DNA of 64,000 bases from Fragilariopsis cylindrus CCMP1102 (Eukaryota > Bacillariophyta > Bacillariophyceae > Bacillariales > Bacillariaceae), in contig FMBT01000137.1 of assembly GCA_900095095.1 (NCBI GenBank), forward strand, positions 32,353 through 96,352, written 5' to 3'. The notes beneath the pieces are model-generated. The model ran no database searches. It worked only from the letters and a program-made list of their open reading frames with translations, and had not been told where the DNA came from. Of this stretch, positions 39,016 to 45,861 are shown piece by piece. Each line of letters starts with the position of its first letter. The first letter of the stretch is position 1. Made by a program: the position numbers and the translations under genes.

Positions 39016-39920
39016 TTATCTTTGATATCTCCTTATTACAGTGCTATCGTATTCGTAGTTGTTTATGTTGTTCGATGCAGTATCCGTACTAGTAATTTCG
39101 CCCTTGCTGTTGCTGTTGCTAACCATAGCAGCCTTCGCGCTAGAAGAACAACACTTCGTGATAATTACATCAATACCTGTTTTTGCGACACTTACTGCTG
39201 CTTCTAATTTTGTCTGTTCATTAGTCAGTTATGAAATGCAATGAGCAACAACAAATAAATAAATATATTAGCAACGGTTATTGAATACTCAGAATTCAAA
39301 TTGTATTGTACGGTAACTTAAGGGAGAAGGAAGAACGAAATGGACTACAGTATATTGAACTATAACGTACCTCAAGTCCGCCTGTTACGTCGTGTTCATG
39401 TAACGAACCAGAAGCAGATACTATATCTTCGTTCATTACCTTGCCCGTAATAGGATCAATATCTATATGTCTGACTAATACTGCATCATCATGATATATG
39501 TTTGGATCTTTTGTGTACACCCCATGCACATCAGTTAAAAATATTGTCTTCGATATGCATTCATTCATTAACGGATGTGTTGCAATAATTTCGACCAATG
39601 TATCACCCCCTAATATTCCTCCAGACATTGACTGATGCTGGAACATGATATCATCATTAATTATGCTACTACCATCACCATCAGCATTCCTGTTATGGTA
39701 TGTGCCATACAGTCCAGCATCGCCATGTATAACCGGCACAAGTCCCGCTGACAGCGTTTCTTTAATAGCATGAACAAGTAACGTAACTCCATTATATTCA
39801 TTTCCACCATGGGCCATTAGTCCTGGTATATTCATACACGGTGAAATACCAACAGCATTGACACCCTCTTCAATAAGATAGGAAACAATTGAACTATTCA
39901 ATTTCTTTACGCTATATATT

Positions 39921-39971
<51 letters not shown>

Positions 39972-40636
39972 CGAAAGCCATTACATTATATCATCACAAG
40001 GAGGAATCTACTAGCAAACTATGCAACGCACCTAAGACGTGTTTTTGCAATACCCGTAATCATATCCTTTTTTAGTTTCCTACCATTATTGGGTGGAGGC
40101 AAAGTTTCCCCCCTAAGACCATACTTCTTTGCTGTATGATGTCCAAAGGAACCAGCTCCATGAACGATTATCATTGCTGGTTTATTGTCACTGTCATTGT
40201 CATTGTTGTTGTCGTTATCATCGACATTGCTGTCATCGTCAATGTGATCACTAAGAAAATCATCATTAATGGATAATTTGACTGTTTTTGAAAACCATTG
40301 AAGAGCTTCTATGTTTAACATTTCTAGCTTCGCCTTGTCTGGAACGTTTTGGAAACATTAAAGAAATTTAATAGGGGTTAGTTGTTGTGACAACGACGAC
40401 GAATAATATGCGATCATGATAAGTCAAACGCAAACGCAGAAGTCGAGTGGATGTATGTGCGTACGGGGAATACTGTACAACTATCCAAATCTTTTCGATC
40501 AGTATTTTTTTTCCATTTCTAGAAATTTACCTGTTATGGACGATCCACCAACTTTCAGAAGTAGAACGTTTTTATGATTGCCACCGCCGCCGACCTGCTG
40601 CTGCTGCTGCTGCTGCTCCGTTTGACTACGACCCAT
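39016..40636 (-). CDS. IPK: Isopentenyl phosphate kinase, four exons
   Basis: Model: complement(39016..39213, 39371..39911, 40032..40338, 40531..40636), 383 residues; all three introns are GT-AG and every join keeps frame. IPK phosphorylates isopentenyl phosphate to isopentenyl diphosphate. Visible motifs: LLLKVGGSSITDK (nucleotide-binding Lys/Gly loop, residues about 25-37), the family hallmark HGAGSFGHHTAKKYGL starting at His95, TRLSVKKLNSSIVSYL, VNAVGISP, GLVPVIHGDAGL, GGILGGDTLVE, FLTDVHGVYTKDP and DVTGGLETKLEAAVS. An acidic Asp/Asn insert precedes HGAGSFGH. A Gln tract sits at residues 8-14. No signal peptide, so probably cytosolic, with the mevalonate pathway. Start ATG 40636 follows the only in-frame Met before the kinase loop. 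Intron 3 carries a (TG)n microsatellite. Confidence 0.93.
39923..39971. repeat. (TG)n(AG)n microsatellite inside an IPK intron
   Basis: TG repeats from 39923 to about 39955 pass into AG repeats. On the coding strand this is (CT)n(CA)n ending about 10 bp before the intron's 3' splice site at 39912. Confidence 0.9.
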
Positions 40637-41298
40637 TGTTGTTGTTATTGTTGTTGTTGTTGTTGTTGTTGAATCGCGATCACTATTGCATCGTAGACGA
40701 TATATCACGACTTCGAAGATATCCAGCGTCTATGAGTTAATGTAGCTGATTATGATATATGCTTTCTCGTCTACAGCATCTTTGTATGTTTGTTTTGGAT
40801 AATATTTTTCAATACTGTAATTCAACGTTTTTTGTGATGATCGGTGTCAAAAATTCAAGATTTTTCCTTGACTCAATATATTATTCTTACGCTAAACTTG
40901 ACTAGTTCGATTAAAAGTGTCATAATGCGCGCCCAAATGAAAATCAAGGGGCCCATCCATCAAAAAGGGTGCGTGCAACAACCATCCATCAATAATTTCT
41001 TTATTGACACGAGGAGATTATTTGATGTTTGCTGTCGATAAACAACTAAACTCGAAAATGATTTATGAGTCGAGTCAACAGACTTCAAATAAATCCATAG
41101 ATTTAGGTACTTACTAGTACGGTATCCGTTATCTCATCAAAAGCAAGACGGTAGGTACTATTTGAATGCACCAAGGTCTTCAAACATTCATTAGATTTGT
41201 GGGCCAGAAAATTACTACTGTAGTTCTTTGAAACAATAATATTTACGCTCCTGCCCAACGCCGGTCGACAACCAGAAAAGAAAAGAGAATTAAAGGCG
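40637..41298. other. Shared divergent promoter region
   Basis: Lies between the IPK start (minus) and the SufE-MnmA start (plus). No gene supported. It begins in a (TTG)n run at about 40637-40670. Confidence 0.6.
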
Positions 41299-43816
41299 AT
41301 GATGATGACGACAATACCGTCATCCTTCAATACAACAATATGCTTGAAAAGAAACAAGATTATCGATTTACTATTTATCGCATTTTTGATATCACATACA
41401 ATAATTACTATTGATTATATCCCAGTTTGTCATTCATTTACTACTACAAGTACTACTAATCCTACAAGTACCGGTAATCGGTTTTGGCACGATGACTCAT
41501 CAAAACAGAGACAACAGCAGGTTCGTCATCAAAGATCGAAAATATTATCGTCGTTACCAACAATAACATACAGTCCTGCATCATTTTCCACTACGAGACA
41601 GCAGCGACTCTTAGCAGCTACTTCTACTGAAAACGACGACGACGACGACGACGATGCTAATTTCGATAGAAATCGACGAAGAAATAATCTAGACGATGCT
41701 AAAAACAACAACAACGACGACAACGCTTCTGTAAAAGAAATTCAACAACGTTTGGTACAAAAGGGACTTACCTGGAATCAATCATCGTTGGATAGTTTAC
41801 CAAACATGGTGCGCGTCCCTGGGTGTGTTGCAACTGTATATGTTCTTGCAACAGTAGTAACAACAACAACAACAACAACAACAACAGAAGAAGAAGACGA
41901 CAACGAGAATGAGGGATTACAACGTCGAAATGTAGTACCGGTCGTACAACTATATGGAAATTCTGATGCTATTGTTAGTCGTGGTTTGCTAAGTGAATTA
42001 GCAGATTATTTAAAACAATCAAGTAGTATCGACGAAGTCTTGAAATTGGATCCAAGTACTGTTGCTGATATATTGGGTGTACGACCCGCCCTTAGTAGGG
42101 GAAGGAATGATGGATTAGCTAATATGTTAGAAATAATTCAAAAACAATTGTCATTTATACCACCGTATGAGGAATTGACTTTGAAAAATGACGTGACGGA
42201 TGTAATAAATAATAATGATAATAATACGACAATAATATCATCGTCATCACCATCATCATTATCATCATCATTATCATCGGACAACAGTAACAAAAAACCA
42301 ACAGTGGCATTGTTATTATCGGGTGGTGTAGATTCTTCTGTTGCATTTCGATTATTACTACAACAAGGATATGACGTTGTTCCGTTTTATTTAAAAATTT
42401 GGTTAGAAGACGAATTAGCACATTTAGGTGAATGTCCATGGGAAGATGATGTACAAAGCTGTCGAGACGTTTGTGACCAGGTTAATATTGAACTACAAAT
42501 AATTAGCTTACAAGATGAATATCATAAACACGTTATGCAACATACCTTAAATGAAGCATCATTGGGCCGTACACCCAATCCTGATATACTATGTAATTCA
42601 AGAGTAAAATTTGGTTGCTTTTTAGAATATCTCAAAGGTTTACCAAAAAATAATCAATTTGATTATATTGCTAGTGGTCACTATGCACAAGTCAAACGAA
42701 AATCGAATAACAACGATAACTGTGATGAAAATGATGATAGTGATGATGGCATCGCTAGATTGTATCGAGCTCCTGACCCTGTTAAGGATCAATCTTACTT
42801 TCTTTGTGCATTGGACCAATACCAGCTTCGACGATTATTGTTTCCTATCGGACACTTAGAAAAGACAGAGGTGCGACAATTAGCAGAAGACTTTCAACTG
42901 CCAAATCGGAACCGTCCAGACTCGCAGGGACTTTGTTTTCTTGGAAAAGTCAAATTTAGAGATTCATGCAAATTCATTTAGGAGAAAAATTCGGTGATCT
43001 TGTAGATGCTGTAACTGGTGAAATAATTGGAGAACATCATGGGTTTGGTACCACACTATCGGACAACGCAAGGGTATTGGTCCGTATCTGAAACCAAAGG
43101 CTACTGCTTTAGGTCCATGGTATGTGGTTGCGAAGGTATGTATGTATGTGGCTACTAAAAAATAGAGATGAATTACTTGTAGAGCCCCCAGGATTGAGGC
43201 ATTCATAGTTGTTACTTTCGATTGTCTTCCATGGGCAAAACACATTTATGTATCAAGTGTGGTTCCCTCTTAGAACATATCGATCTCACAAACATTTATG
43301 TCGCTGTTACTCTATTGTTCCTTTGTTTTTGCTTCTGTTTACGAAGGATCCATCAAAGAACATTGTCTACGCCAGTAATAAATACGACGAAGATGTGTTT
43401 GTCCAGTCTAGATCCGAATTCCACGTAGAAAGTCTTCATTGGATTTCTGGAAAAGAACCAACGCACCTTTTGGACACGAACGGTAGTTATCGACTCATTC
43501 TTAAGATACGTCACGGACCGAAATTGGCTGGAGGGACTTTGACGGTACTAGAAGAAGAAGACGATGGCATTGACAACGGCATCGAGGATAAAGTTTACAT
43601 GCAGCTAATAGTAATGACAACAGCAACAACAACAAAAGGAATGGGGGTATCGTTAAGCTCGAACAAAGGGATGGAGGTCTAGCTCCTGGTCAATATGTTG
43701 TATTTTACACGGAGGATGCCGAATGCTTAGGCGGAGGGATCATAAGTGAAAGGCACTGGGCCAAATTTCTCCTTGACACTCAATCTAGAGCTAAGACTAC
43801 CGAACAATGTATATAA
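41299..43816 (+). CDS. mnmA: SufE-MnmA fusion: sulfur acceptor domain plus tRNA 2-thiouridylase (frameshifted 3' part)
   Basis: MnmA makes 2-thiouridine at the wobble position of tRNA; SufE takes sulfur from the desulfurase SufS. The N-terminus is a signal-anchor and transit-like region (IIDLLFIAFLISHTIITIDY), suggesting the plastid. Residues about 143-283 are SufE-like: LPNMVRVPGCVATVYVLA with Cys176 at the SufE acceptor position, VQLYGNSDAIVSRGLLSELA, ILGVRPALSRGRNDGLANML. From residue 335 comes MnmA: SGGVDSS (341-347), GRTPNPDILCNSRVKFG with nucleophile Cys432, SGHYAQV, KDQSYFL, DSQGLCFLG with Cys546. Shifts follow near 42970 and 43045 (HTIGQRKGIGPYLKPKA is in another frame). The intron 43136-43346 joins VVAK to DPSKNIVYASNKYDEDVF. 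One more shift near 43640 leads to GGLAPGQYVVFYTEDAECLG, stop 43814-43816. Content is collinear with whole MnmA, so the shifts look like lost bases. Confidence 0.88.
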
Positions 43817-44013: not shown

Positions 44014-45861
44014 CTAAAAAAAGATGCTATCCTCGTCGTCATCATCTATGATCTCAATAATATCATCATCTATAATCTCAATATCATAGGTGTTGTCTTC
44101 TATATCTGGTATTTCGGGTCCGTCCACAACCTGAAACTTTAATTCTTCATGTTTGAGCATTTCGAGTCTAGAAAGGTTGGCTAATTCATCTCCACACAGC
44201 TCCAGTACTACATACAAGACAATATGACAGAGGAAAATATTCGAAAGAGGGAGACAATAGTAAGATGATAGAAATAAAAGTGGGTGTCACACACACACAC
44301 AATATCCAGGCTCTTATATCTTATACCCTATTAGTATTGTACGTACCTTCGTGGAATAGTGGAGTGGGCAATGCTTTGCATTGTTTGAGAACTAATGATC
44401 GTGCACAGGCTATTGGTTGTAATTTACCCAACCGTACCTCAACATCTAACCTCGATTCATTATATTTATGACAACCAATGAAGAAACGAAATTGCATTGG
44501 ATTGAATTCACCAGAAAGTACTCCCTCAACAGCAGCATCGATTCCACCCTCATATATCTTTGATCCTGGACTAATTTCAATTGAACCCGGTAAATCAGGT
44601 ATCCCATGAATCAAAATAGCACCTTCTCCCTGATCATTTGGACCACCAACATAAACAGCACATTCATCTTGGAATGCTTTCATAAATTGTACAAGTTTAT
44701 TGGATGCATCCGTGCTGATTTTTAAATTATAAGCACCAAGGAAAACAAGTTTCCCTAAATTTTCTGTCAATTTCCACCCCATCGGACGATTCAAAACTAC
44801 TGCCTTCGAAAATTGACTATTGCCATATGTGGTGAAATTCTGTTCTAGGACTAAACAAACTTCCTGCCATTGTTCTTGATTTTCTAAATACAAATGTATT
44901 AATTCATCATAATCTTCTTCAAGTGCTGTTGCATCAATTTGATCATCATCATCCGCTAAGTTGGCAATATTTCTCATTTCTTCTTCAATATATTCTTTTG
45001 ATCTGTAATACCAATGATTTATGTTCAATTCATCTGTTGATATATCTTCCCCATCAGCATCTTCATCTAACATTGCTCGTAATCGTGAACCCATAATAGA
45101 ATGATTGTAGTTGCGATACAATTCTACCTCCAGTGGCATCCGAACAACAAGTCCACCCACTTCTGGCTATTTTTTGTTTTGTTTTGTGATGAAAATAGAA
45201 GGGGGAAAAATGCATGCATATGAGTGAGAGAGAGACATCAGAAGGGAGGGAAAACGACGTGGGGGTACTACACTAGTGGGTGGTGCATATCGGTACTATA
45301 CTTCCTTTAAAAAAAAAACGATACATAATACTTGTAACGTACCGTAGACGTAACATGAGCCCATGCACCCGAGGCATATTCTTTTGCTAATTCTTTGTCT
45401 TGTTTTTTCAATGCTTCCTCATTCTTTTTCTTGGAGGATTCATCTCTATAATCTACATTATCAATAAGATTATCATCGTCATCTGTTGATAAACTACGTC
45501 GAAAATTTCTCCAGTCACCTAATGAATCAGTATCGATATATTCACCATCATCGTCATCATCGTCATCATCGTCAGAATAATTGTCGTCGGCTACGGCAAA
45601 TCTAGCAAAAGAGAATGTTTTAGGTGAAACCGACAACGGCGCCGCATTATTATCATTTATGTATTCCTGCTGTTCTTGCTTCCTTTGGTGCCGTTTAGAA
45701 GATGACGATGACGACGAAATAGAAGGTACAACAGCAAACCCATTGATATGCTGCTTCCACAACGATATGACAGATATGATTATAACAATCTGTATTCTTA
45801 ACGCCGAGCAATAGCAAGGACGATTCGGAGAATTTCGTTGCTGCCGCCTTCGTTGTGCCAT
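44014..45861 (-). CDS. UPF0301 (AlgH/YqgE, DUF179) family protein, three exons
   Basis: Model: complement(44014..44207, 44347..45166, 45343..45861), 510 residues; both introns are GT-AG and in frame (joins VTSTPEVGGLVVR and LFHEVLELCGDELANLS). The N-terminus has a hydrophobic segment IQIVIIISVISLW followed by INGFAVVPS, a pattern like a bipartite plastid signal with Phe after the cleavage point. Acidic linkers follow. The UPF0301 core is clear: VVLNRPMGWKLTENLGKLVF, AVYVGGPNDQGEGAILIHGI, PDLPGSIEISPGSKIYEGG, FRFFIGCHKYNESRLDVEVR and CARSLVLKQCKALPTPLFHE. The C-terminus is very acidic (IEIIDDDDEDS). The biochemical role of this family is not known to me. The gene is intact. Confidence 0.92.

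Follow-up and report, generated by a model that had tools for sequence, protein, structure and literature searches.

A single unbroken frame on the forward strand of the window (the 64,000-nucleotide stretch of Fragilariopsis cylindrus contig FMBT01000137.1 that was analysed) specifies a leader of plastid-like appearance, followed by a SufE domain, a linker and an MnmA catalytic domain. It is fairly likely, judging from the predicted protein, that the product is a plastid-targeted tRNA 2-thiouridylase with a built-in sulfur acceptor. The new element is the SufE-MnmA fusion of a diatom, a lineage far from the Apicomplexa. The frame extended from stop to stop over 41224-42981 (+), with the first ATG at 41299 and TAG at 42979-42981, and specified 560 amino acids with the following features.

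41299..42981, + strand: SufE-MnmA fusion open frame, 560 codons and TAG (open reading frame translation)
41299..41436, + strand: N-terminal leader, residues 1-46, a hydrophobic stretch and then CHS|F (read from the sequence)
41758..42147, + strand: SufE domain, residues 154-283, interrupted by a low-complexity Thr/Glu/Asp insert (PF02657 and shuffle control)
41824..41826, + strand: Cys176, counterpart of the E. coli SufE acceptor cysteine (alignments)
42148..42300, + strand: linker, residues 284-334, low complexity, no Met (Met positions)
42301..42948, + strand: MnmA catalytic (HUP/PP-loop) domain, residues 335-550 (PF03054; TIGR00420)
42319..42339, + strand: PP-loop SGGVDSS, residues 341-347 (aligned with E. 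coli MnmA)
42592..42594, + strand: Cys432, MnmA catalytic cysteine in NPDILCN (aligned with E. coli MnmA)
42934..42936, + strand: Cys546, MnmA catalytic cysteine in SQGLCFLG (aligned with E. coli MnmA)

The original prediction had placed SufE and MnmA in one open frame. Indeed, both domains lay within the 560-residue frame, and Cys176, Cys432 and Cys546 were located by a sequence check at the positions it had given. Contig C439 carried the same sequence over the entire fusion open frame, with an identical junction. Contigs C213 and C439 differed by one substitution and three one-base gaps in 7,002 columns (99.94% identity over 7 kb), a near identity which marks C439 as an allele or a redundant contig and not as independent evidence for conservation. 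Such near-identical duplicate contigs also suggest an uncollapsed, indel-prone assembly. Methionines occurred in the frame at residues 1-3, 170, 276 and 413 only. The nearest Met ahead of MnmA was thus residue 276, within the SufE domain, and with none between 276 and 413, the linker offers no ATG from which the MnmA part (from residue 335) could start.

Residues 143-283 had been read as SufE-like, and a profile search agreed, with PF02657 matching residues 154-283 at 39.8 bits (E 4.4e-10; Pfam gathering cut-off 27). A profile of three bacterial SufE proteins scored 25.5 bits against residues 143-300, where the best of 1000 shuffles reached 7.9. With diatom SUFE1 pieces added, the same profile scored the SufE domain of the fusion at 41.0 bits (best shuffle 8.4). 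A profile from E. coli SufE only gave 14.1 for the domain and 11.0 for the whole protein (best shuffle 7.1). Two divergent rows (L107 and L108) were left out of the home-made SufE profile. The NCBIfam equivalog models for SufE/CsdE scored below their cut-offs (19.1 against 160, 18.1 against 136.4 and 14.7 against 252), and single-sequence comparison with solved SufE/CsdE structures was weak (best E 0.32); these low scores point to a diverged SufE that only a profile brings out. Where it aligned with E. coli SufE, the domain was 23% identical, and 14 gap columns lay directly before the cysteine loop. The VPGC acceptor loop, GNSDA and RNDGL of the fusion aligned with E. coli SufE, and Cys176 aligned with the acceptor cysteine of that protein, which we take to be Cys51, as well as with SUFE1, L105 and L106. 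By these profiles and alignments, residues 154-283 are a divergent SufE domain.

The MnmA core predicted behind the SufE domain, with SGGVDSS and both catalytic cysteines, was confirmed by a match to tRNA_Me_trans (PF03054) of 224.3 bits over residues 335-550 and by alignment of the PP-loop and the two cysteines with E. coli MnmA. TIGR00420 scored 227.8 bits, under its cut-off of 236.95, as can be expected where only a part of MnmA lies in the frame. The gene had been predicted to extend to 43816. This position fits the end of MnmA, but the gene is not one frame to that point, since a stop at 42981 follows Cys546. The remainder of MnmA was recovered as four pieces in shifted frames, of which one scored over its curated cut-off, one just under and two weakly.

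42966..43040, + strand: MnmA middle domain, piece 1, shifted frame (PF20259, 14.2 bits, weak)
43046..43135, + strand: MnmA middle domain, piece 2 (PF20259, 24.9 bits, E 1.5e-5, just under the cut-off of 27)
43136..43346, + strand: probable GT...AG intron of 211 bases (by eye; the frame fits on either side)
43347..43646, + strand: MnmA C-terminal barrel, piece 1 (PF20258, 13.3 bits, weak)
43646..43816, + strand: MnmA C-terminal barrel, last piece and stop (PF20258, 37.0 bits, cut-off 20.6)

The window copy contained three frame breaks. The break before 43046 was absent from C439, and the other two were common to both contigs. An 11-base intron at the first break was ruled out as too short and because the residues downstream continue MnmA-like. 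Gaps outnumbered substitutions between the contigs (three to one), which points to assembly error, and the breaks in the C-terminal part are probably of this kind. Elsewhere in the window, the frame at 39296-39985 (-) matched the amino acid kinase family (PF00696, 50.2 bits), and the frame at 40019-40357 (-) had no Pfam match and contained the motif GAGSFGH, which to us recalls isopentenyl phosphate kinase; the two frames may be one gene. An AlgH-like DUF179 protein was encoded at 44321-45166 (-) (PF02622, 42.9 bits).

A plastid setting had also been predicted, and it remains likely from a leader that is plastid-type by eye and by hydropathy. The strong hydrophobic stretch (peak 15-residue hydropathy 2.39) is followed by CHS-F, which we take to resemble the diatom plastid cleavage motif ASA-F, and the fusion is probably located in the plastid. 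SufS was found on two contigs above its curated cut-off (543.4 bits; cut-off 475.1), with one TAA within the match and a leader similar by eye to that of the fusion. A separate SUFE1 consisted of SufE followed by BolA (BolA 58.4 bits) behind a plastid-like leader with ANAF. Its two copies (L007 on C164 and L008 on C28) differed by small gaps and substitutions and changed frame inside the SufE domain. SUFE1 also has VPGC, and it reads GDSDG and RNNGF where the fusion reads GNSDA and RNDGL. A second MnmA was encoded by a 519-residue frame with no SufE and, from the look of its leader, is probably mitochondrial. NadA had one match in the genome, in a 492-residue frame, and the contig concerned carried no match to SufE. 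TusA gave no match at E<=1 in the diatom genome, in an intron-blind search that can miss short genes; 11 of 14 control genomes matched. Silicon transporters gave 27 matches in the genome (up to 757 bits), two of which contained stops, and they identify it as that of a diatom; one of the 14 control genomes, from bacteria and archaea, also matched, under the cut-off.

In the proposed mechanism, plastid SufS would make a persulfide from cysteine and load it onto Cys176. Swinging on the linker, the tethered SufE domain would then hand the sulfur to a catalytic cysteine of MnmA (by analogy Cys546, presumably the counterpart of Cys199 of E. coli MnmA), and MnmA would adenylate U34 of plastid tRNA and insert the sulfur. 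The separate SufE-BolA protein would keep serving Fe-S cluster assembly, so that the two SufE domains would split sulfur between two products. This relay, which the original prediction had put forward, is the best reading and is supported by the domain layout, from which we infer the transfer steps. The accompanying claim that the relay is self-contained and bypasses separate carriers held in part: no TusA was detected, but a separate SufS would be needed and SufE-BolA is kept, and "self-contained" was an overstatement.

The fusion had been thought undescribed, and this did not hold. In the text of Yang et al. (2022), Toxoplasma gondii MnmA (TGGT1_309110), an apicoplast protein, is assigned SufE at residues 519-589 and tRNA_Me_trans by profile HMM (PMC9420914). 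Swift et al. (2023) describe a domain structurally like SufE within the first 421 residues of Plasmodium MnmA, and their SufE-like figure used the N-terminal MnmA regions of B. microti, T. annulata, T. gondii and E. tenella (PMC10219651). The diatom gene thus adds a member to a known architecture. As described there, nuclear-encoded T. gondii MnmA likewise joins the two domains in one chain with SufE first, but is at least 1598 residues long (in the numbering of Swift et al.), with a SufE match confined to 519-589 and three tRNA_Me_trans matches. P. falciparum MnmA (PF3D7_1019800) also has the SufE-like domain ahead of MnmA; there, in a comparison made by description, the 421-residue extension is recognised by its structural resemblance, while the domain of the diatom scores above the Pfam cut-off. 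SUFE1 (SufE-BolA) and SUFE3 (SufE-NadA) of plants and algae resemble the diatom protein in fusing SufE to a functional partner, but in the account of PMC8003979 that partner is BolA or NadA, with an Fe-S role, and not MnmA. The diatom fusion shares the MnmA chemistry of E. coli MnmA, with the PP-loop and both catalytic cysteines, and E. coli MnmA has no region aligning to its SufE part. E. coli MnmA with TusABCDE and B. subtilis MnmA with YrvO are described as receiving sulfur through separate proteins or a dedicated desulfurase (PMC10219651).

No report of SufE-MnmA in a diatom or other stramenopile was found in the open-licence literature searched. Oomycetes have, to our knowledge, no plastid. 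A Phytophthora MnmA-like protein is listed with the tRNA methyltransferase domain only in the relevant part of PMC4030286, and the portions of PMC8300815 and PMC13343975 in which the search words occur held no SufE-MnmA fusion.

Bacterial relatives were sought among at least 80 MnmA loci selected by two patterns. The SufE domain of the fusion gave no tblastn match at E<=1 against these loci, single-sequence tblastn being a weak test, and E. coli SufE gave one chance match (E 0.72). The in-frame stretch upstream of the PP-loop was measured for all of these loci, and among the 30 longest of these stretches the longest were not SufE-looking. One locus (L049) matched query residues 205-559, into the SufE part, but its upstream region was a separate frame that stopped just before MnmA and that may, from its sequence, encode a membrane transporter. 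The SufE profile matched in 4 of 24 genomes drawn from the at least 80 loci and in 40 of 61 genomes of one phylum, with one genome common to both sets. No bacterial SufE-MnmA was found by profile and frame length among the 84 distinct genomes, 43 with a SufE match and no cyanobacterium deliberately included. The only frame longer than 270 residues (599 residues, in G054) resulted from overlap with a SufS gene in a different frame, and one genome (G071) was uninformative since its two SufE matches were cut by contig ends. No viral contig was confirmed. Among the at least 80 loci, nearest to the diatom MnmA was the YLKIWLED type (L022-L054) and not the E. coli type, in a ranking biased by the scan patterns and made without cyanobacteria. 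These MnmA sequences, from Acidobacteriota, Patescibacteria, Babeliales and Spirochaetes, were 45-57% identical to it, except for two loci at 38 and 44%.

Apicomplexan data bear on the relay from both sides. The best external support comes from genetics: apicoplast maintenance in P. falciparum was reported to require SufS and MnmA but not SufE (PMC10219651), which is what a SufE domain built into MnmA would lead one to expect. SufA-SufE is said to be missing from T. parva and B. bovis, although SufS is retained (PMC4010437), and loss of free SufE may in Theileria and Babesia go together with SufE-like MnmA N-termini, a connection drawn across different species. Two separate SUFE-like proteins are ascribed to T. 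gondii (PMC8639094), so a fused domain there would also sit beside free ones. Against the relay, the diatom SufE domain is divergent and has a low-complexity insert, and the window gene as assembled has no intact C-terminus. In addition, B. subtilis MnmA alone replaced Plasmodium MnmA, with success in one of four attempts (PMC10219651), indicating that SufS can apparently feed MnmA without SufE.

This last result also supports a reading in which the SufE domain would serve only as a docking or activating module for SufS, with sulfur passing directly from SufS to the MnmA cysteine in the manner of B. subtilis YrvO. Swift et al. judged direct transfer the closest parallel to their data, but also name the SufE-like domain as a potential carrier and a relay from SufS through it to MnmA as possible (PMC10219651), and the divergence of the diatom domain, with its gaps ahead of the cysteine loop, would also suit a docking role. 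Retention of Cys176 and, as in E. coli, of the GxSDA and RxxGL stretches would be unexpected for docking alone. SUFE1, however, reads GDSDG and RNNGF: SufE proteins differ in these stretches, which makes them weak evidence on this point, and we regard docking alone as rather unlikely. That the fused domain is a second general SufE, merely parked on MnmA and feeding SufBCD Fe-S assembly too, has a precedent in the other partners to which plant SufE is described as fused (SUFE1-BolA and SUFE3-NadA; PMC8003979). It is improbable given that the genome has its own SUFE1 and that loss of free SufE made Plasmodium dependent on mevalonate, which was ascribed to lost Fe-S synthesis (PMC10219651), so that the SufE-like domain of MnmA apparently does not replace free SufE there.

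The frame breaks raise the question of whether the gene has decayed, with a C-terminus of MnmA that is truly frameshifted. Two of the three breaks are shared with C439 and two of the four downstream pieces score weakly, which speaks for decay. The other two pieces, however, retain a match to MnmA families (24.9 bits, slightly below the cut-off, and 37.0 bits, above it), C439 lacks one of the breaks, and the differences between the contigs are mostly gaps. SUFE1 also changes frame inside its SufE domain, and stops occur even in 2 of the 27 silicon transporter matches, which introns could explain as well. Decay is on this evidence highly improbable. One-base errors of the kind this assembly appears to contain could also have joined two separate genes, but the junction is identical on two contigs, albeit possibly redundant ones, a separate MnmA would have no Met to start from, and the same architecture is described in Apicomplexa (PMC9420914, PMC10219651); an artificial joining is scarcely credible.

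The preferred reading, a thiouridylase with a tethered sulfur acceptor, places the diatom beside the Apicomplexa. The predicted domain order suggests that the SufE-MnmA architecture spans red-type complex plastids, and its presence in both lineages raises, without proving, a single origin there. We see an even chance that the fusion arose once, before the red-type plastids of stramenopiles and Apicomplexa diverged, and that it would be how complex red plastids in general supply sulfur for tRNA 2-thiolation, with one SufS, a free SufE for Fe-S clusters and a tethered SufE for tRNA. If true, this would explain why SufE is dispensable, and SufS is not, for apicoplast survival. The diatom fusion also shows a branch of sulfur use that is unnamed in the main text of a 2021 survey of the SUF proteins of 25 microalgae, which treats SUFE1 and SUFE3 and in which MnmA has no occurrence (PMC8003979). 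What lets apicoplast SufS feed MnmA was left open in the account of Swift et al. (PMC10219651). A fusion in a photosynthetic diatom, in which SufE scores above the Pfam cut-off and keeps its acceptor cysteine, supports a tethered carrier as the answer. Diatoms include culturable, genetically tractable non-pathogens, and the fusion makes the transfer of sulfur from SufS to MnmA testable in such an organism.
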